Assembly (NCBI GenBank): GCA_944359015.1 | Contig: CALVSK010000005.1 | Coordinates: 1-38,142, forward strand | From: an uncultured Bacilli bacterium | Lineage (GTDB): Bacteria; Bacillota_I; Bacilli_A; RF39; UBA660 | Reading direction: 5' to 3' | Length of the DNA stretch: 38,142 nucleotides | In this document: piece after piece, positions 9,973 to 28,405 of the stretch | Layout: every line of letters begins with the position of its first letter | How positions within the stretch are numbered: position 1 is the stretch's first letter | Translations under genes and position numbers: made by a program | Notes under the pieces: generated by a model | The model's input: only the letters and a program-made list of their open reading frames with translations | Told to the model about the DNA's origin: nothing | Database searches by the model: none

Positions 9973-10380
9973 ATGGATAAAACATTTGATAAAATTGATA
10001 TTATTTATATTATTTTAATTTCTATTTATTTGTTTGCTCTTTTTTTTGGAATTATGTGGATAATTTTAAGTAAATTAGAAAATCGTAAAAAAGGAACAAA
10101 TAACAATGATAAAGGCAATTTATCCACAAATAAAATTAAAAATATAACAAATAAAAAAGAAGGAACACCAATAAAAAATAGCAAAAAAGATACCACTAAG
10201 AAAATTAATAGTGTATCAACTAATAAAAATAAAAATGATTATTCTAAGAAAAAAACTACGCAAAATAAACAAAATAAAAACAATTCTGCTAGTAAATCTA
10301 ATGGTTATAAAAGTCCTACAAAAAAAAGAACTACTAAAAAGAAAAAAAATAATAAAAATAATAAAGCACGAAAAAAATAA
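9973..10380 (+). CDS. Small membrane protein with Lys/Asn-rich tail, function unknown
   Basis: 135 residues. One membrane helix at about 10-33 (IIYIILISIYLFALFFGIMWIIL) is followed by a low-complexity basic tail of about 100 residues, almost all Lys, Asn, Thr and Ser. A TATAAT lies about 25 bases upstream of the ATG; the ribosome site (GGTTAGG) is weak. No family recognised. The tail would bind nucleic acid or wall polymers by charge. It converges on the retron reverse transcriptase, sharing the terminator region, so it is the nearest gene to the retron, but on the opposite strand and with its own promoter. Confidence 0.6.
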   Translation: MDKTFDKIDIIYIILISIYLFALFFGIMWIILSKLENRKKGTNNNDKGNLSTNKIKNITNKKEGTPIKNSKKDTTKKINSVSTNKNKNDYSKKKTTQNKQNKNNSASKSNGYKSPTKKRTTKKKKNNKNNKARKK

Positions 10381-10390
10381 GTGCTTTTTT
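10363..10390 (+). terminator. Terminator between the Lys-rich protein and the retron RT
   Basis: AAAGCAC / GTGCTTT stem at 10363-10387 followed by T's. Also palindromic for the opposite strand, where the U-run is weaker. Confidence 0.65.
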
Positions 10391-10391
10391 A

Positions 10392-11342
10392 TTAAAAGTC
10401 TTTTATCAAATTAAAAATATATTTTTTATAATTTTCAAATTCTTTTGTTCTATTTATTTGTAAAACAAATAAAATTCTTCCATGTAATTGTTTTAAATAG
10501 CTATCTTCTTTGCCAACATAATTGATTTTATTTAAATGATTATTTAAGCCATATTTTTTTATATAAAATACTTCTTGTCTTATCTTTTTTCGATATTTTA
10601 TATTAATTTGCATTTTTTTATTAACTGTTATTCCAGTTACATTTTGATTTTGAGATTGATTAATTACTTTTGTCTTTTCATTATTTAATTCTAAGCCAAT
10701 TTCATATAACATTTTTCTTACCTTTTTTATTATTTTTCTTACATTCAAATCTCCAGAAAATGTTAAGTCATCAGAATATCTTGTATAACTAACCTCTTTT
10801 TCTTTGCACCAATAACCTAATTCTTCATCAAAATCTTTTAAAACTAAATTTGATATATAAGATGATGTTGGAGCACCTTGGATTAAATGTTCATCATATG
10901 TACATAAATGAGTTAATAACATTCCTACAGATTTAGGAAAATATTCAATTGGAAAGCAACTTTTATATACATTAAAAAATGTTATATTATCAAAGAAGTT
11001 CTTTATGTCCAATTTTAAAATCTTTTTTTTATTTATATGTTCTATGGCATTGTCTTTTAATGATATATTCTTATGATATGCTTTTGCATATTTTGATATT
11101 TGTTTATTATTTAATATATTATTTAATATATTTTTTTGGATTTCTTTTAATATTTTATTTGGAGCATATATCTTTCTAAAACCACCATTTTTCTTTTTTA
11201 TTTTATATATTTTATAATTATTTTTTATATTATTACTTATAGAATATAAAGTATTAATATATTTTTTATTATTTTTACATTTGAATAATTTAAGAGATAG
11301 TAAAAATTCATTACATTCATCTTTACCAATGTATTTCCACAT
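10392..11342 (-). CDS. Retron-type reverse transcriptase
   Basis: 316 residues, the usual size for a retron RT, with no maturase or HNH extension. The NAxxH motif reads NAIEH (98-102); RT block A is KLDIKNFFDNI (110-120, Asp112); QGAPTSSYISN is at 155-165; the catalytic box is YSDD (189-192); and the retron-specific VTG is at 235-237 in NVTGITVNKK. Together NAxxH and VTG separate retrons from group II intron RTs. The start ATG has AGGAGG 7 bases upstream. Directly upstream on the same strand is a foldable msr-msd-like RNA with its own promoter. Expected role: reverse transcription of msd into a branched RNA-DNA, usually as the sensor of an anti-phage system. No effector gene is fused or co-transcribed. 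Confidence 0.92.
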   Translation of the reverse strand: MWKYIGKDECNEFLLSLKLFKCKNNKKYINTLYSISNNIKNNYKIYKIKKKNGGFRKIYAPNKILKEIQKNILNNILNNKQISKYAKAYHKNISLKDNAIEHINKKKILKLDIKNFFDNITFFNVYKSCFPIEYFPKSVGMLLTHLCTYDEHLIQGAPTSSYISNLVLKDFDEELGYWCKEKEVSYTRYSDDLTFSGDLNVRKIIKKVRKMLYEIGLELNNEKTKVINQSQNQNVTGITVNKKMQINIKYRKKIRQEVFYIKKYGLNNHLNKINYVGKEDSYLKQLHGRILFVLQINRTKEFENYKKYIFNLIKDF

Positions 11343-11358
11343 TTTACTACCTCCTAAA

Positions 11359-11517
11359 TGCAGTACTTTTCATATAGTAATATGGAAATGGACTTTAGCA
11401 AAGCGTGCTACACATAGTGTAGGGTAGTCCATTGAAATATTACTATTTAATATTCTTATATAATTTTGTCCCTTAACGAATCGTTAAAGTAGTTTTTTAC
11501 AAACTTACACTACTGCA
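11359..11517 (-). ncRNA. Retron msr-msd RNA
   Basis: Lies between the RT gene and a promoter, on the RT strand. Terminal repeats a1 TGCAGTA (11511-11517) and a2 TACTGCA (11359-11365) are perfectly complementary, as in retrons. The msr part has a short stem AGTTT/AAACT and an 8-bp hairpin at 11471-11489 (CTTTAACG / CGTTAAGG). The msd part is a long hairpin: outer arms ATAGTAATAT / ATATTACTAT (11437-11446 with 11374-11383), inner arms AATGGACT / AGTCCATT (11426-11433 with 11387-11394), tip hairpin CTACAC-TAT-GTGTAG (11408-11422), with an alternative tip stem at 11396-11410. The expected cDNA is roughly 75-85 nt. The branching G is not assigned with confidence. Confidence 0.82.
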
Positions 11518-11522
11518 ACTTT

Positions 11523-11551
11523 ATTTTAGCATAATTTCTAAATTAAAACAA
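11523..11551 (-). promoter_or_regulatory. Retron promoter (extended -10)
   Basis: On the minus strand, TTGTTT (11546-11551), 17 bases, TAAAAT (11523-11528) preceded by TGC (extended -10). Predicted transcript start near 11516 coincides with repeat a1. The -35 overlaps the U-run of the terminator of the upstream operon, so the retron is an independent unit. Confidence 0.65.
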
Positions 11552-11572
11552 AAAAAGCATTGCCTGCTTTTT
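11549..11572 (-). terminator. Terminator of the ltaS-LCP operon
   Basis: AAAAAGCA-GGCAA-TGCTTTTT perfect stem followed by T's, immediately after the LCP stop codon. Confidence 0.85.
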
Positions 11573-13497
11573 TAATTTAATAAATCTTCTAATATACCAT
11601 CTATTATTTCTTCTGAATCTTCACTTTCGTTTTCTTCTTCAACGATTTCTTGTTTGCTATTTACTACATATACTGTAAGTTCATTAACTGTCGATAAATG
11701 TACTCCAATTTGCACACTTTGATCACCGATTAACCCTACTGCTACATCAGCATTATAATGGTTATCTCCATAATCAACATATTCTATATTAAATGATATG
11801 CCATTTTTATTACAAAATTCTTCTGCTTCAGTCACTGTTTTACCAATAAAACTAGGCAATACTGTTGTTGATTGTTCTTTTCTTAAACCTTTTCCTGGAC
11901 TATAAACTTCATATGTTTCATTTACGGAAAAACTAAATGTTTTTATTATTTCTTCTTCCATTTCTCCTAAAGTTATTTTTAAAGCTTTTTTAATATCTTC
12001 TAAACTATCTACATAATAACCTTGAGCAGATGTTGTAGTTCCTGTTGTAGGTAAATAAACATTTAAACTATAAGTTTCTAAGTATGCCTTGTTTATACTT
12101 AATACATCTTCGCCAGTTAAAACATTTCCTACCATATTTTTTACTACATCATAACCAGATAACATTGTATTCATATCCATATTCGTTGCTATATTATTGC
12201 TTATTGCATTAAGGATTTTTTGAAAATCTTTTATGCTACTAAAACTTAATCCTTTTTTAGCTATTGCTTCGACAACTTGTTGTTGATGTCTAATCCTATC
12301 TAAATCACTACCTATATATAAATGTCTATTTCTAGCATATGCTAATGCTTCTTCACCATTTAAAGTTTGTAATCCTGGTTCTATACATACTAATTTGTTC
12401 CCAAATTCTCTATCTGAATTTTGTTCACACATCATACCGTCATATTTATCTGCATTGTATGTAGGAGCTTCTACATCTACTTCTATTCCGCCAAGAGCAT
12501 CAACTAATTCTACTACACCTTTAAAATTAATTTTTACATAATAGTCAATTCCTATGTCAAAGAAATTTTGTATTGTTTCGATAACACAACTTGTGCCATA
12601 TGCTGCTGAAGAATTTATTTTTGAATATGCATTATTCCTGCAAGCAATTGGTACATAAGTGTCCCTTGGTATACTAACCATTGTTGTTTTTAATGTGTCT
12701 GGATTAAATGTAACTACCATTAATGTATCCCCATTAAATGCTGCATTAGTATTTAAACCATTATCTTCTGAATCTACACCCAATAATAAAAATGTAAGTG
12801 GTTCATTAAATTTTTTGTTACTAGATAATGTTAAATCAGTATTATCTCTTTTTTCACTATATTTATATAATATTTTAGTATCTTCTTTTATATTTTGATA
12901 TTCTTCTTCATTACTAAATAAAGTAACGTAATTACTTGGTACAAATATTGCATCTATTTCTTTGTTATATAATTTTTGTAACAATATACTATAATCGCTG
13001 TAATCTTCTATGTTATTTACTAATTTTTCTTTGCTATATAATTTTTGAGCTAAATCATATCCTTCAATTTCATTTTCATCGTCAATCATACCAATTACTG
13101 AATCATTATCAAATTCTGTGTCTTTTAAAGATATTAAATATACAGTATATACTAGTTCATTTTCTTCTGTCATATTATTAAATGAATTATAAATTACATT
13201 TATGTAATATGTTGATACTGAAAATACTGTTATAAATAAAATTGAAATAATTGTTGTTATTATAAGTATTTTATACTTTCTTCGAAGCAAATTTATCAAA
13301 TTACTAAATATATATAATAATAAATACACTATAAAAAATATTATAAAAATAATTCTTAATATTGTTTCTATCCCTTTTAATGTTAGTATGCTTTTTATAA
13401 AGAAACTTAGACTTATAATGTATGCCAGTATTATTAAATAATAAGTATATCTAAATATTTTTTTTGATTTTTTTAATTTTTTTAACAACCTTCCCAT
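11572..13497 (-). CDS. LytR-CpsA-Psr (LCP) family wall-polymer ligase with PASTA-like domain
   Basis: 641 residues. Three membrane helices (about 16-37, 44-68, 75-98), an extracellular alpha/beta segment at about 115-225 resembling a periplasmic-binding fold (DAIFVPSNY), the LCP domain at about 232-415, and a PASTA-like repeat at about 545-613 (LPSFIGKTVTEAEEFCNKNGI). LCP hallmarks: NGDTLMVVTFNP, SIPRDTYV with Arg278, YARNRH (Arg389/391) and DLDRIRHQQQ. The family moves undecaprenyl-linked polymers (teichoic acid or capsule) onto peptidoglycan, outside the membrane. The start shares one base with the preceding stop (TAATG). The PASTA-like end suggests wall targeting. Confidence 0.9.
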   Translation of the reverse strand: MGRLLKKLKKSKKIFRYTYYLIILAYIISLSFFIKSILTLKGIETILRIIFIIFFIVYLLLYIFSNLINLLRRKYKILIITTIISILFITVFSVSTYYINVIYNSFNNMTEENELVYTVYLISLKDTEFDNDSVIGMIDDENEIEGYDLAQKLYSKEKLVNNIEDYSDYSILLQKLYNKEIDAIFVPSNYVTLFSNEEEYQNIKEDTKILYKYSEKRDNTDLTLSSNKKFNEPLTFLLLGVDSEDNGLNTNAAFNGDTLMVVTFNPDTLKTTMVSIPRDTYVPIACRNNAYSKINSSAAYGTSCVIETIQNFFDIGIDYYVKINFKGVVELVDALGGIEVDVEAPTYNADKYDGMMCEQNSDREFGNKLVCIEPGLQTLNGEEALAYARNRHLYIGSDLDRIRHQQQVVEAIAKKGLSFSSIKDFQKILNAISNNIATNMDMNTMLSGYDVVKNMVGNVLTGEDVLSINKAYLETYSLNVYLPTTGTTTSAQGYYVDSLEDIKKALKITLGEMEEEIIKTFSFSVNETYEVYSPGKGLRKEQSTTVLPSFIGKTVTEAEEFCNKNGISFNIEYVDYGDNHYNADVAVGLIGDQSVQIGVHLSTVNELTVYVVNSKQEIVEEENESEDSEEIIDGILEDLLN

Positions 13498-16236: not shown

Positions 16237-16311
16237 GCAGGTGTAGTACAATGGCTAGTATACGACCTTGCCAAGGTTGAGATGGGAGTTCGATCCTCCT
16301 CACTTGCTCCA
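16237..16311 (+). tRNA. tRNA-Gly (anticodon GCC)
   Basis: Complete cloverleaf of 75 nt. Acceptor GCAGGTG pairs with CACTTGC (one G-U), discriminator T, CCA encoded. The anticodon arm is CTTGCCAAG with GCC at its centre; the T-loop reads TTCGATC. It is followed by a terminator. A candidate mobile element starts just downstream, but no duplicated tRNA 3' end was seen. Confidence 0.95.
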
Positions 16312-16351
16312 TTGACGAATCTGTTCGAACTTTTCGGACTTTGATATATAG

Positions 16352-16377
16352 AAATCAATCGCGAGATTGATTTTTTT
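16352..16377 (+). terminator. Terminator of tRNA-Gly
   Basis: AAATCAATC-GCGA-GATTGATTT hairpin followed by T's. Confidence 0.8.
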
Positions 16378-16442
16378 GTGTCTCGAACTCCCCGTAGAGC
16401 TTGGAAATACAAAGAAATCATCCTAAAGAAAGGATGGTGTTT

Positions 16443-16718
16443 ATGATTAAGTTTATTAAGCAAGAATTGCCTTTTGAAAAGTCATTAAAACAAAGACTAG
16501 ATTTTATCTGTAAATTCTGCAAAACAAAACCAATATTCATTAATGGCAATATTATAAAAATTGATAAAACTAATCTATCTTATATTGAACCTCATAGAAT
16601 CATTATTAAAGGTATAACATTTCTTGCATTTAATTATTCTACTGATATTTACATAAGAAACTTAACTAATAAAATTAAAATATCAGAACTAGAAAATTAC
16701 TTAAATACTATAAACTAA
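16443..16718 (+). CDS. Hypothetical 91-aa protein of the mobile region
   Basis: Starts MIKFIKQELPFEKSLKQRLDF. The ATG at 16443 follows GAAAGGATGG; a longer TTG start at 16401 has no ribosome site. About 91 residues with a CKFCK pair near residue 23-26 and a mostly beta-rich middle (INGNIIKIDK, HRIIIKGITFLAF). No family recognised. It lies between the tRNA terminator and the recombinase and shares the recombinase strand. A weak stem (CATCCT / AGGATG) covers its ribosome site. Possibly a regulator or accessory gene of the element. Confidence 0.55.
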   Translation: MIKFIKQELPFEKSLKQRLDFICKFCKTKPIFINGNIIKIDKTNLSYIEPHRIIIKGITFLAFNYSTDIYIRNLTNKIKISELENYLNTIN

Positions 16719-16805
16719 CCTTTCACTAAATAGATTTTCATCTAAAAATATTGTATAATTTATATAGAGAGTAATTTATTTACCTAAAGTCTTACAATGT
16801 ATTTT

Positions 16806-16851
16806 GAGAAGTGAAAGTATTAGTTTGTAGTACCTTCACTTCTCTTTTTTT
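16806..16851 (+). terminator. Strong terminator or attenuator ahead of the recombinase
   Basis: A 10-bp perfect stem GAGAAGTGAA / TTCACTTCTC (16806-16844) followed by seven T's. It lies downstream of a likely -10 (TATAAT, about 16755-16760) and only 29 bases before the recombinase start, so transcripts must read through it. It may end the 91-aa gene's message or act as a leader attenuator. Confidence 0.7.
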
Positions 16852-16876
16852 AAAACTTAAAAAAGGAGATGATTAA

Positions 16877-18869
<1,993 letters not shown>

Positions 18870-19018
18870 CTAGGAGGTTAAATATTTTGTCAGAAACAAA
18901 ATAAAGCAAAGGAGCTGATATTATAGAACTATCTTATTCACTACATTTAGGTAGTGATAAAAATAAGAAAAACAACTTACGAAAAAGTGGTAAAAGTAAT
19001 GCTAGTGGCTCTACTTCT

Positions 19019-20293
19019 ATGAGTAATAATGCTATTCAAAATGCATCTGGATTATCAAAAGTTGATAAACATAATTGTAGAAAGTATGATAATAATAGAG
19101 ATAATATAGAAGTAATTAAAGGTTCATTTTCTATTTATGATGATGTTAAAAAACTTTATAAAGATGAATTTGAAGAAGCAAGATTAGAATATAATTCTAG
19201 ACAAACTCGTAAAGATAGAAAGATAAAAGATTATTTCTCTCATGTTAGCAATAATTCTAAAAATGATTTAGCTTGTGAAATAATTATTGAACTTGGTGAC
19301 AAGAACTTTTGGGATACTAAAGATCTGACTTATAAAAAGAAAATGACTAATGTTTTTAAAGAACAAGTTACATATTTAGAAAATATCTTACCTAATTTTA
19401 AGATAGCGAGTGCTATTATACATTATGATGAAACATCACCACATCTTCATATTATTGGTGTTCCAATTAAGACTAAAACTAAAAATGGGATGTCTAAACA
19501 AGTCGGAAAATCTAGTGTCTTTACAAAGGAATCTTTAGTTAAAATACAAGATAAAATGAGAACACTTTGTATAGAATCATTTAATAAAGAATATCTAACA
19601 AATAACAAATTAAAAACTAAATTAAAAGGACGAAATAAAGATTATCATGTAACTGAGATGGAAAACTACCAACGAATGAAAAGAAGCATTGAAATACATC
19701 AAAACAATTTAGATAGAGCTAAAGAAAAGACTGAAATTTTAACAAATAACAGCAAAGAAATCAGAGATATTTTGGAAAGTTTAAAGTCCAAAGGTCTCAT
19801 TAAAAATCAGTTAGTTTTAGATGTTGTTAATAAAGATAAACTTCTTGTATTTATAGATTTAGTTGATAAAACTATTGCTGAATATCAAAGTGTTCAAGAA
19901 CTATCTGTTACCTTAAAAGAGATAGAACGTGAACTTATTGCTAATCGTCAAAGAATGAATCTTTATTCAAAAAGCAATGAAGAACTTAATATTGACGTTG
20001 ATAATTTAAAAAAAAAAATTCAATCGCAAAATAATGAAATTGCCAATTTAAAGGAAGAGAATACTTTATTAAAATCTTCTTTAGAATACTTTAAAACTAT
20101 AGTCTATAGTCTTATCCAATTCTTAATAGATAGAATTCATAGAGGTAAAAATAAGGAAAAATATATGAGTTTTACAAAAGAATTATGTGAACGCAATATT
20201 TTAAAAGAAGAAGATTTTAAAGTATTTCATGATAACAAAAATATAGATAAATTAAATAATTTAGAAATAGAAAAAGATGATATCAAGTATTAA
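19019..20293 (+). CDS. MobV/Pre-family plasmid mobilization relaxase
   Basis: 424 residues from the first ATG. Motif I is KHNCRKY (HNCR at 18-21); motif III is HYDETSPHLH (135-144), the HxDE...PHxH metal site of Mob_Pre relaxases; a long coiled coil covers about 215-350. It nicks DNA at oriT for mobilization. The real N-terminus is probably upstream: the same frame reads ELSYSLHLGSDKNKK... back to 18920, with AAAGGAG before ATT/ATA codons. Further up, AGGAGG (18872-18877) precedes TTG TCA GAA ACA AAA TAA (18887-18904) in this frame. So either a non-canonical start is used or a TAA has broken an original TTG start. The 19019 ATG itself has no ribosome site. A shared terminator follows. Confidence 0.88.
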   Translation: MSNNAIQNASGLSKVDKHNCRKYDNNRDNIEVIKGSFSIYDDVKKLYKDEFEEARLEYNSRQTRKDRKIKDYFSHVSNNSKNDLACEIIIELGDKNFWDTKDLTYKKKMTNVFKEQVTYLENILPNFKIASAIIHYDETSPHLHIIGVPIKTKTKNGMSKQVGKSSVFTKESLVKIQDKMRTLCIESFNKEYLTNNKLKTKLKGRNKDYHVTEMENYQRMKRSIEIHQNNLDRAKEKTEILTNNSKEIRDILESLKSKGLIKNQLVLDVVNKDKLLVFIDLVDKTIAEYQSVQELSVTLKEIERELIANRQRMNLYSKSNEELNIDVDNLKKKIQSQNNEIANLKEENTLLKSSLEYFKTIVYSLIQFLIDRIHRGKNKEKYMSFTKELCERNILKEEDFKVFHDNKNIDKLNNLEIEKDDIKY

Positions 20294-20838: not shown

Positions 20839-22419
20839 ATTTGAGTTTCGGTTTTCGAAAAATATTTATGAATTTTATATGATTTGAACAAAATTGTTCA
20901 AAAAATTAATTTTAATATCAATATTTGCAGTTTTCTCCCATGACAAAATATAGCACTTTTTATGCCTTTTTAAAATTCTTGATATTTTGTTTTTTTAAAG
21001 CTTTAAACTTAATTGTCGTGGATCCCTAACTTCTATATCTTGCCATCGTTTTATTCCTTCATGGGCATACTTTAATATTTCTTTCATCCCTCTAGCAATT
21101 TGACTTAGCCATACAACGGCTTTATTTCTTAATGATTTTGATGCATATATAATTTTAATTGTTAATAATTTGCTATCTATTTTATCTGCTAATATCGCTA
21201 TATGTCCCAGATGTATAGTAAGCATCATATTTAAATTATTCATACTTTTTAGTGTTCTTACTCTCATATTTTCAAAATCATATTCTTGTTTCTTTCCTCT
21301 GAAATGTTCTTCTATTCTCCATCTAGACAAATATAATCTTACTATTCTTATAACATCTTCTTTACTTTTAATCTTGATGTTAGTAAGTAATTTCATCGGC
21401 TTATCTTCACTTAATCCATACACAATTACTAAAGTGTATTCTTTTTTGTTATATGGTAATGTGGCTTTTGTATAGCTTAACATTAATTCATATTCTTCAT
21501 TATCATCAAATAATACTTTCATTGCTATTTTACCTTTTCTGGATTTAGCAACTTCTTCTACACTCTTTTTTTTGCCTTTAAATAACAACGTTCTTGTATC
21601 CTCTAATCTTACTATAAATGAATGCTCTTTTTTATCCATATAATCAAATATTTTTTTATCATCATATCCTCGGTCAAATATCCCTATAAATTTTTTCCCC
21701 ACTATATTTTCAACAGCTTTTATACTATCTAGTGTATAAGTGTTTTTACTTTTAAAATCTTTGCTTTTACACGAATATATTTTACTATACACACTTATTG
21801 GTTGATTGGTATGTTTGCTAAGTATCACAGCTTCACAAACATTATACCCATTTACTATTCTTTTATCTGGACTTGATGCATCTCGAACACGATCTAAATC
21901 TTCTAACTTTTTGCTATATTCCTTATTGATATCACTATCATCAAATATTGCTATTGGCTCCTTCGTATTTATATGCTTTTTTACTTCATTTATATAATTT
22001 CTCCATATAATTTTTTCATACTTATCGTCCAAATTTGCAAAATTATCACATAATCTATCTATCGTATAATTTAATTTTATATCTTCATCTAGTGCTCTAG
22101 CCATGTTAGAGACTAAACAACTTCCACCTTTAGCAAGACCATATTGTGTTTCCATAACAAACTTTTTGGCTGGTTTACTAGTCCCATTTGCAATTTTTTC
22201 AGAAAAATTACAAATTTCTCTTTTCAACTCATAGGTATTTGTAGTAAAATTATTCATGTAAGACACCTCCATATTTTTGTTTACTATGATAATTTAGTAT
22301 ACAACTTTATTATACTAAACTTTGGAGTGTTTTACCTTATTTTTCAATCAAAAATCAGAAAAAGTTATCAACATTTTCTGATTTTTTTTGCCAACTATTT
22401 TTTTCACCGAAACTCAAAT
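20839..22419 (-). mobile_element. IS4-like insertion sequence with 14-bp terminal inverted repeats
   Basis: About 1.58 kb. Left end ATTTGAGTTTCGGT (20839-20852) and right end ACCGAAACTCAAAT (22406-22419) are perfect inverted repeats flanking one DDE transposase gene. No clear target-site duplication is visible; outer A/T bases of the repeats may partly belong to the target. The right end lies 3 bases from the rpoZ stop codon. One copy only in this window. Confidence 0.88.
20995..22257 (-). CDS. IS4-family DDE transposase
   Basis: About 420 residues, intact. Catalytic fold signs: first Asp in IAIFDDSDINKEY, second Asp in FIGIFDRGYDD, and the Glu region YLSRWRIEEHFRGKKQEYDFE, matching the IS4 Y-(2)-R-(3)-E-(6)-K-type signature in relaxed form. 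I chose the ATG at 22257 (MNNFTTNTYEL) because GGAGGTG lies 6 bases before it; the ATG at 22272 overlaps that ribosome site. It performs cut-and-paste transposition of the surrounding element. Confidence 0.92.
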   Translation of the reverse strand: MNNFTTNTYELKREICNFSEKIANGTSKPAKKFVMETQYGLAKGGSCLVSNMARALDEDIKLNYTIDRLCDNFANLDDKYEKIIWRNYINEVKKHINTKEPIAIFDDSDINKEYSKKLEDLDRVRDASSPDKRIVNGYNVCEAVILSKHTNQPISVYSKIYSCKSKDFKSKNTYTLDSIKAVENIVGKKFIGIFDRGYDDKKIFDYMDKKEHSFIVRLEDTRTLLFKGKKKSVEEVAKSRKGKIAMKVLFDDNEEYELMLSYTKATLPYNKKEYTLVIVYGLSEDKPMKLLTNIKIKSKEDVIRIVRLYLSRWRIEEHFRGKKQEYDFENMRVRTLKSMNNLNMMLTIHLGHIAILADKIDSKLLTIKIIYASKSLRNKAVVWLSQIARGMKEILKYAHEGIKRWQDIEVRDPRQLSLKL

Positions 22420-28057: not shown

Positions 28058-28405
28058 AAAATAATTTCTCATAAGCCATGTTCTGTCCTTTCCAAAGAAA
28101 GTGGCAAATATTTATCTCCTTAATAAGGCCCTATTTCAGTTCATTTTCCAAAATAGAACTCCCCTACCATAATTTGGGTTTCTCACTCGTGGGGTTTACC
28201 TCGTTCCACTCATTTGGTTTCCCAAATGACTCGTCTCTTTGGCACTTTTATATCTAATCAAACCAGTTAAGGTTTTTTCGAAGCCGTTAGTTAAAACTAC
28301 CTTGAGTTATTTATTTCTCAAGCACGAACACTACAACCATCGCAGTTTGTGTGAGCATGGACTTTCCTCTACATAACAATATATGCAGCATTTGCCTCAA
28401 AATTA
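28058..28405 (-). ncRNA. rnpB: RNase P RNA (class B, Bacillus type)
   Basis: About 348 nt on the minus strand. It contains the conserved core GAGGAAAGTCCATGCTC near its 5' part and ends near GGCTTATGAGAAATTATT. The first stem pairs AATAATTT (5') with AAATTATT (3'), which brackets the molecule. It matures the 5' ends of tRNAs. The location next to gpsB is as in B. subtilis. The 5' end overlaps the gpsB stop codon by a few bases if the P1 stem is counted; exact ends are approximate. Confidence 0.92.

Follow-up and report, generated by a model that had tools for sequence, protein, structure and literature searches.

The window, by which the whole analysed stretch of 38,142 nt from an uncultured Bacilli bacterium is meant, carries a predicted retron on its minus strand. 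Along that strand, a LytR-CpsA-Psr (LCP) gene is followed by a hairpin, a −10 box, the RNA, a ribosome-binding site, the reverse transcriptase (RT) gene and a further hairpin, and the features were delimited as follows:

11550..11573, minus strand: terminator-like hairpin AAAAAAGCA...TGCTTTTTTT at the end of the upstream LCP gene
11523..11531, minus strand: extended −10 promoter element TGCTAAAAT, where the stretch common to distant copies has its left end
11359..11517, minus strand: msr-msd non-coding RNA, predicted from covariation and a covariance model
11511..11517, minus strand: a1 repeat TGCAGTA (sequence, covariation)
11491..11505, minus strand: msr stem-loop 1, AGTTT pairing with AAACT, of weak conservation (65.9% of helix 2 cells paired)
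11471..11489, minus strand: msr stem-loop 2, with the apex GATTC here (helix 3, 97.5% of cells paired)
11374..11446, minus strand: msd hairpin, with a 10-bp lower stem, a 3x3 internal loop, an 8-bp middle stem and a 6-bp tip
11359..11365, minus strand: a2 repeat TACTGCA (sequence, covariation)
10392..11342, minus strand: retron reverse transcriptase, 316 aa, with NAIEH (region X), YSDD and VTG (region Y)
10360..10391, unstranded: terminator-like hairpin after the RT gene, into which the 3' end of a convergent 135-aa gene extends

Neither terminator-like hairpin (11550..11573 or 10360..10391) was listed by a stricter consensus scan. The LCP gene, the convergent 135-aa gene and an SH3/dockerin gene were found to adjoin without an RT in 9 of 27 other LCP loci, some of which stop at a contig edge; the window retron thus sits inside an older convergent gene pair.

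Reverse transcriptase and promoter

Retron RTs are defined, in the available text of PMC6868368, by NAxxH in region X and VTG in region Y. The translation of the 316-aa RT contains NAIEH, VTG and YSDD, as the first-pass annotation of this DNA had reported, and its reading frame is open over the full length with the catalytic YSDD in place. RVT_1 was the sole Pfam domain. The best PADLOC model was RT_Ec107-like (411.5 bits, 5.5e-124), followed by RT_III-A, the model of type III-A retrons (337.5 bits). When the PDB was searched with the RT sequence, retron RTs were the best matches, from 1.5e-32, while DRT2 first appeared at 5.8e-8 and a maturase RT at 4.7e-6. The AlphaFold model of the RT (pLDDT 92.6) was used for a Foldseek search, in which ranks 1-18 were retron RTs and rank 19 a group II intron RT; the best eight rows had E values of 9.8e-21 to 2.5e-18, TM scores to the query of 0.69-0.76 and 24-29% identity.

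In the RT tree, 25 Ec107-like RTs formed a single clade (support 94/94, under the level that the tool marks with a star), which excluded the RTs typed III-A, IV and XI/XII-like as well as a DGR-like RT; the deepest forks are uncertain, and the outer branching order is unsure, as the branches are long. The type III-A RTs of two loci (L067 and L068) fall outside this clade, and the RNA model described below finds nothing at them. A phylogeny had been proposed as the check on the identity of the RT, and the PADLOC match, the PDB sequences, the fold search and the tree all place it with retrons; a group II intron or DGR identity was not borne out by the PDB sequence ranking, the Foldseek ranking and the tree. 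The protein is therefore assigned, by RT profile match, as a full-length retron RT of the Ec107-like class.

A promoter whose start falls on a1 had also been proposed, and the extended −10 element was indeed located just upstream of a1, at 11531-11523. A −10-like box, taken as at least 5/6 matches to TATAAT at most 32 nt before the a1 core, was present in 55/55 homologues; shuffled upstream regions yield one in 78%, and the discriminating features are a TG one base before the box (43/55) and a 6-nt gap (24/55). The retron promoter was not among the promoters listed by a consensus promoter scan of the window.

Covariation and held-out detection of the msr-msd RNA

The elements expected of a retron RNA were found as claimed: a1 at 11517-11511 matches a2 at 11365-11359, and all three msd arms (10, 8 and 6 bp) are present, giving a hairpin of 73 nt from stem to stem. 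RNA folding gave −40.7 kcal/mol (z −2.69), and 3/200 shuffles were as low.

For comparison, 60 upstream regions were collected. L067 and L068 were removed first, then L172 and L178 (in which a1 was not rightly found) and L030 (the same locus as L058), which left 55; L057, L059, L060, L062 and L159 were kept out of the alignment, so that it comprised 50 homologues. The RNA ends were set by a complementarity search, and six sequences were trimmed by hand. RNAalifold, run on the 50 homologues without a given structure, recovered 20 pairs, of which 16 have double changes; they make up a1/a2, the hairpin of the msr and a portion of the msd stem. Under the 45-pair structure, 88.3% of cells were paired, against 78.0% in shuffled alignments and at most 41.4% when the structure was slid; double-changed cells numbered 201, against 58.2 shuffled and at most 55 slid. 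Double changes were seen at 33 of the 45 pairs (19.0 in shuffles), the covariation score was 0.270 (0.113 shuffled), and none of 500 shuffles reached any of the five covariation measures. The a1/a2 and msd stems thus covary among homologues, as had been anticipated.

By helix, 98.9% of cells were paired in a1/a2, a figure that leans towards the answer because the RNA ends were cut by complementarity, and 87.8, 84.5 and 85.1% in msd helices 4-6. Likewise, the real structure is favoured over its slid versions because the five inner helices come from the window's own pairing. The apex of msr stem-loop 2 is a near-invariant GAGTC in the family, and the GATTC of the window is uncommon.

More weight is given to a held-out test, because relatedness can exceed what shuffles capture and the structure was taken from one member sequence. 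A covariance model, R1, was built from the 50 aligned homologues; it matches 11358-11518 of the window, which is in its training set, with 146 bits. Seven loci had been held out (L057, L059, L060, L062, L159, L172 and L178), and R1 found the RNA before the RT in 7/7 of these Ec107-like loci (3.4e-8 to 6.8e-5), one of which, L060, is GC-rich and comes from a Eubacteriales bin. At nine loci of other RTs, six of them typed (L064 only weakly) and three not typed (L069, L070 and L192), R1 found nothing (0/9). This test is free of the end-cutting and own-pairing biases of the covariation count. Together with the RT class and the covarying stems, the held-out matches bear out the retron identity (RT plus msr-msd RNA) first proposed, and the RNA at 11359-11517 is taken, from comparative sequence analysis, to be a conserved msr-msd. 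Rfam gave no match at threshold for the window locus; at E values up to 10, four chance-level snoRNA matches appeared there, one of them opposite the RNA strand. At five further retron loci, Rfam gave nothing at E up to 0.1.

A pair of competing stems at the msd tip had been suggested as a possible switch. For these competing stems, 4 pairs were counted in the window, where shuffles average 4.01, and 50 homologues average 4.52 pairs, against 4.00 shuffled (37/50 with at least 4); the switch is therefore not supported.

In the proposed mechanism, transcription from the retron's own extended −10 promoter would start at or just before a1, a1 and a2 would pair, and the RT would recognise the msr. 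G11510, which directly follows a1 in a TAG-T context, is likely the branching guanosine, judged by the TAGC rule in the available part of PMC6868368; as in the known retrons treated there, the RT would prime from the 2'-OH of this guanosine, and the msd hairpin would be copied into a branched msDNA of, given its anatomy, ~75-90 nt.

Probable spread of the unit, partner genes and possible role

Loci were counted as one site if either flank was homologous. By this rule, 58 loci fell into 36 flank groups with 1.5-kb flanks and into 34 with flanks of up to 4 kb; unseen homology further out would lower this count, and merging by either flank or through paralogues lowers it already. As a species marker, PBP1A (matched in 28/30 genomes) was chosen because CTP synthase matched in just 12/30 at 1e-100. 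A Mantel test was performed on 26 genomes, leaving out G158 and G327 (no match) and G103 and G265 (split match) and using one of the two G009 retrons. RT identity did not follow PBP1A identity (rho −0.09; 1565/2000 permutations at least as high). The RTs of the following pairs are far closer than their PBP1A proteins: G008/G133, from different genera (92% against 43%), G068/G081 (90% against 43%) and G307/G152 (87% against 47%). The window RT shares 69% identity with its counterpart in G152 (PBP1A 42%) and 52% with that in G004 (PBP1A 73%). PBP1A is one marker gene and may mislead, and the hosts are metagenome bins in which contigs can be misassigned.

Seven pairs of copies have unrelated flanks: L047/L176, L032/L033, L045/L047, L035/L037, L165/L167, L161/L165 and L035/L036, of which only the first two are known to be inter-genus. 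L047/L176 (G081/G068) share 92.4% DNA identity over 1,200 nt and L032/L033 (G307/G152) 88.5% over 1,240 nt; in both, the common stretch opens with the extended −10 box (186-203 nt upstream of the RT start) and runs to 53-119 nt past the RT stop. In the five further pairs, the common stretch starts at most 10 nt from the −10 box (~38 nt further out in L161/L165), and its other end lies anywhere from 27 nt short of the RT stop to 11 nt beyond it. No flank homology beyond the unit was found in the available flanks of the seven pairs (66 nt on the left for L176 of G068, 385 nt on the right for L033), bar a weak 70-aa hit right of L035/L036. Other candidate pairs were dropped: L039/L047 have a gene further left in common, L049/L158 have both flanks in common, and within each of the pairs L038/L040, L039/L044 and L155/L162 the gene on the left is the same. 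It is strongly indicated by these sequence comparisons that the unit of −10 box, msr-msd and RT has passed between genera and occupies many intergenic sites.

The genes beside the retron vary between loci. A survey of 50 immediate neighbour proteins at 32 loci, in which proteins at contig edges or under 80 aa were left out, found no Pfam family in more than 4 of the 50 (25 most-matched of 51 families) and no PADLOC model in more than 4 (25 most-matched of 74). Among the families listed are CTP synthase, ZIP transporter, Mur ligase, SAM synthetase, YchF, acetyltransferases and one relaxase; of the defence models, mad3 and mad8, both ATPase models, match the most neighbours, with four members each. 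A dedicated effector gene or fused effector domain was found neither in the RT, with its single RVT_1 domain, nor among these non-conserved neighbours, and no effector or accessory gene belongs to the retron unit. The description of the locus as a "complete retron" accordingly stands for the RT with its msr-msd; it does not if a tripartite system is meant.

The preferred reading, to which we give a probability of about 0.87, is that of a solo Ec107-like retron with its own extended −10 promoter and no effector, exchanged as a unit between genera at many intergenic sites. Its solo status and its spread between genera go beyond what the first-pass annotation saw, and this solo, widely exchanged character is the part worth following.

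How the unit travels was considered with the genes found near some copies:

L041 2044-4935: relaxase, TnpV and a recombinase piece directly right of the retron
L047 1689-3524: large serine recombinase ~0.5 kb left of the retron
L057 2251-2867: recombinase remains left of the retron

The window itself has a serine recombinase and a Mob_Pre relaxase beside tRNA-Gly, ~5 kb upstream of the retron. Serine recombinase or relaxase/TnpV elements are thus possible carriers, and it can tentatively be proposed, at somewhat under even odds, that the retron has no mobility of its own and is a passenger of serine-recombinase integrative or mobilisable elements, its flanks differing as carriers decay or rearrange. 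However, a recombinase occurs in the available flanks of just 3/58 loci (the window, L047 and L057), as searched with those proteins as queries, rather than with other integrase families, in flanks of 1.5-4 kb for most loci. Moreover, the c4-retron block of L041 (see below) is common to L039 and L042, which differ on the right, so the element may have landed beside the L041 retron.

The retron unit encodes only the RT. Classical transposon or IS features were not found: the unit has no recombinase, no terminal inverted repeats were seen by eye, and target duplication at the retron loci is at most weak, the longest word common to both flanks averaging 7.55 nt over the 40 loci covered, against 7.21 nt for mismatched flanks (9/200 as high). 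The window flanks share TAAAAAAGCA, but both copies are terminator arms and no duplication is claimed. Passenger status competes with own mobility, and we find it the likelier of the two. It is improbable that the retron moves by itself as a minimal mobile element, with a unit of 1.15-1.25 kb that begins at the −10 box, ends at the RT stop or the terminator and has no recombinase of its own; it would then relocate and cross genera perhaps by means of its RT, with cDNA made from a read-through transcript being recombined into intergenic sites next to stop codons and terminators.

One neighbour, c4, is a 289-aa AAA_15/AAA_21 ATPase with weak PADLOC matches to mad3, PtuA and AriA. It lies directly before the retron in six locus sets (L039/L003, L042/L004, L041, L043/L155, L044/L177 and L162), and the c4-retron block of ~2.0-2.1 kb is 82-99.6% identical between loci of four genera, while the surroundings, to the left of c4 and to the right of the RT, vary from genus to genus. 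Two examples are:

L039 2884-4960: c4-retron block
L044 2938-4957: c4-retron block

The pair is a possible effector cassette and hints at effector recruitment. The conserved block with its differing surroundings would suit a tripartite anti-phage retron whose effector is encoded elsewhere or lost, c4 being the effector in some lineages; we regard this as rather unlikely, since the other flank groups, the window's included, are without c4, and c4 relatives occur without a retron (an 85% identical one in G026, for example).

A conserved non-coding stretch of ~150 nt (TTGATCATTAACTCTTTTACAAACC...) was also seen by eye after c4 relatives at eight loci (L137, L138 and L140-L145); Rfam gave no match to it in the three of the eight that were scanned.

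Returning to the solo retron, its role might be to sense phages or defend against them with the help of a partner that is encoded at another locus or was acquired locally, which we favour with less than even confidence; selfish persistence is the next likeliest role, and a distinctly weaker candidate, and other roles make up the remainder.

Most characterised retrons are tripartite defence systems. The Ec86 (Eco1), Ec78 (Eco7), Ec67 (Eco2) and Ec83 (Eco4) systems have effector proteins or domains, whereas the window retron has none; their RTs share its fold at the identities given above. The Ec107-like class, to our knowledge, comprises cassettes without an accessory gene, which agrees with the window, and a subset of its relatives has the c4 ATPase. 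The myxobacterial retrons Mx162 and Sa163, as far as we know, likewise consist of RT and RNA without an accessory gene, and the window retron resembles them in this. They are regarded as vertically inherited in the available text of PMC6868368, in contrast to the largely horizontal inheritance in the window's retron family. Retron-Eco5 (Ec107) of E. coli, the namesake of the best PADLOC model, is also intergenic with no mobile element apparent nearby. According to the part of PMC6868368 available, Ec107 replaces a palindromic 34-bp intergenic sequence and its RT has YCDD, unlike the YSDD of the window RT from a different phylum.

The titles and abstract openings searched, with few subscription papers among them, gave no solo retrons of such Bacilli and no mapped minimal unit. 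The loci offer a natural series of solo retrons in one order with one strongly covarying RNA, in which near-identical copies with unrelated flanks outline the transferred stretch and empty, filled and decayed sites are at hand. A bare unit of ~1.2 kb, apparently spread between genera to many chromosomal places, makes retron movement testable and bears on what a retron does without an effector, and the compact pairs of RT and RNA from AT-rich Bacilli may be of use for synthesising DNA in Gram-positive hosts.

Occurrence, empty sites and relics

Within the genus, a copy above 350 bits was found in 14/30 genomes, one of which (G009) has two different retrons. In the order, an RT match at 1e-70 was found in 60/385 genomes and in 26/117 genera sampled, all in family f1 (weakest match G319, 1.1e-72); since only these 60 genomes have it, the retron is dispensable. 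A phylum-wide sample gave 4/392 matches, three in f1 and one in f8 at 9.8e-72. Named contigs yielded 35 loci, of which 31 show 42-71% identity; their titles are mostly Bacilli, Erysipelotrichaceae, Tenericutes or Mollicutes, while Clostridia, Bacillales and Eubacteriales occur once each. Only distant relatives, at no more than 48% identity among the matches listed, came from viral contigs, phages and plasmids.

R1 gave 58 RNA matches in 56/385 genomes of the order, 54 of which adjoin an RT match by coordinates. The remaining matches comprise those of G050 and G334, with broken RTs, and a second copy in G081, with a broken RT start running to the contig end; the last, in G322 (L256 2034-2122), is a relic that lacks the RT and precisely the msd hairpin but keeps an intact msr and a1/a2. 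No intact orphan RNA acting in trans was seen among the 58 matches in the 385 genomes, and within the genus all 16 RNA matches adjoin an RT or RT relic. Under stricter filters, an RT match without an RNA match was left in G083, G153, G200, G226, G319, G357 and G372; the loci of three of these seven genomes (L172, L178 and L159) were RNA-positive in the held-out test.

Broken retron copies are those of G002 and G007, which have internal stops, and of G050 and G334. The CTP synthase-ZIP site is empty in G000 (the window's own genome), G008 and G011, filled in other genus members, and decayed in G006 and in G014, which keeps the retron RNA and two RT ends; the relic in G006 (L110) consists of the promoter and msr. 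With such relics in relatives and its uncommon apex, the window copy could be read as a decaying relic without function, which is very improbable given that its RT is open over the full length with YSDD and its RNA keeps all stems (pairing check, R1 match). Pure vertical inheritance with shuffled gene order is more improbable still: although the CTP synthase-ZIP subset is common to many genus members and decays in place, RTs are 87-92% identical where PBP1A is 43-47%, and G009 holds two different retrons.

Further elements were noted in passing. The window contains, at 16237-20293, a tRNA-Gly followed by the large serine recombinase and Mob_Pre relaxase genes, which looks like an integrated mobilisable element; a DDE transposase gene at 20995-22272; a class B RNase P RNA at 28067-28403 (280.8 bits); and, at the contig edge (2-391), a protein end with TTESTTSS repeats and without a Pfam match. 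The host genome G000 has a second RT (contig C15 18293-18961, L002), DGR-like by eye and with one internal stop, which is followed by an Asn-rich stretch. Another retron-type RT (L024 168-3867) is PADLOC XI/XII/I-C-like, although its length is just 330 aa. It has a DnaB-like helicase on one side and a PHP/pol III alpha gene on the other, an arrangement seen in two genomes of the genus (L024 and L017) that is perhaps part of a phage replication module.
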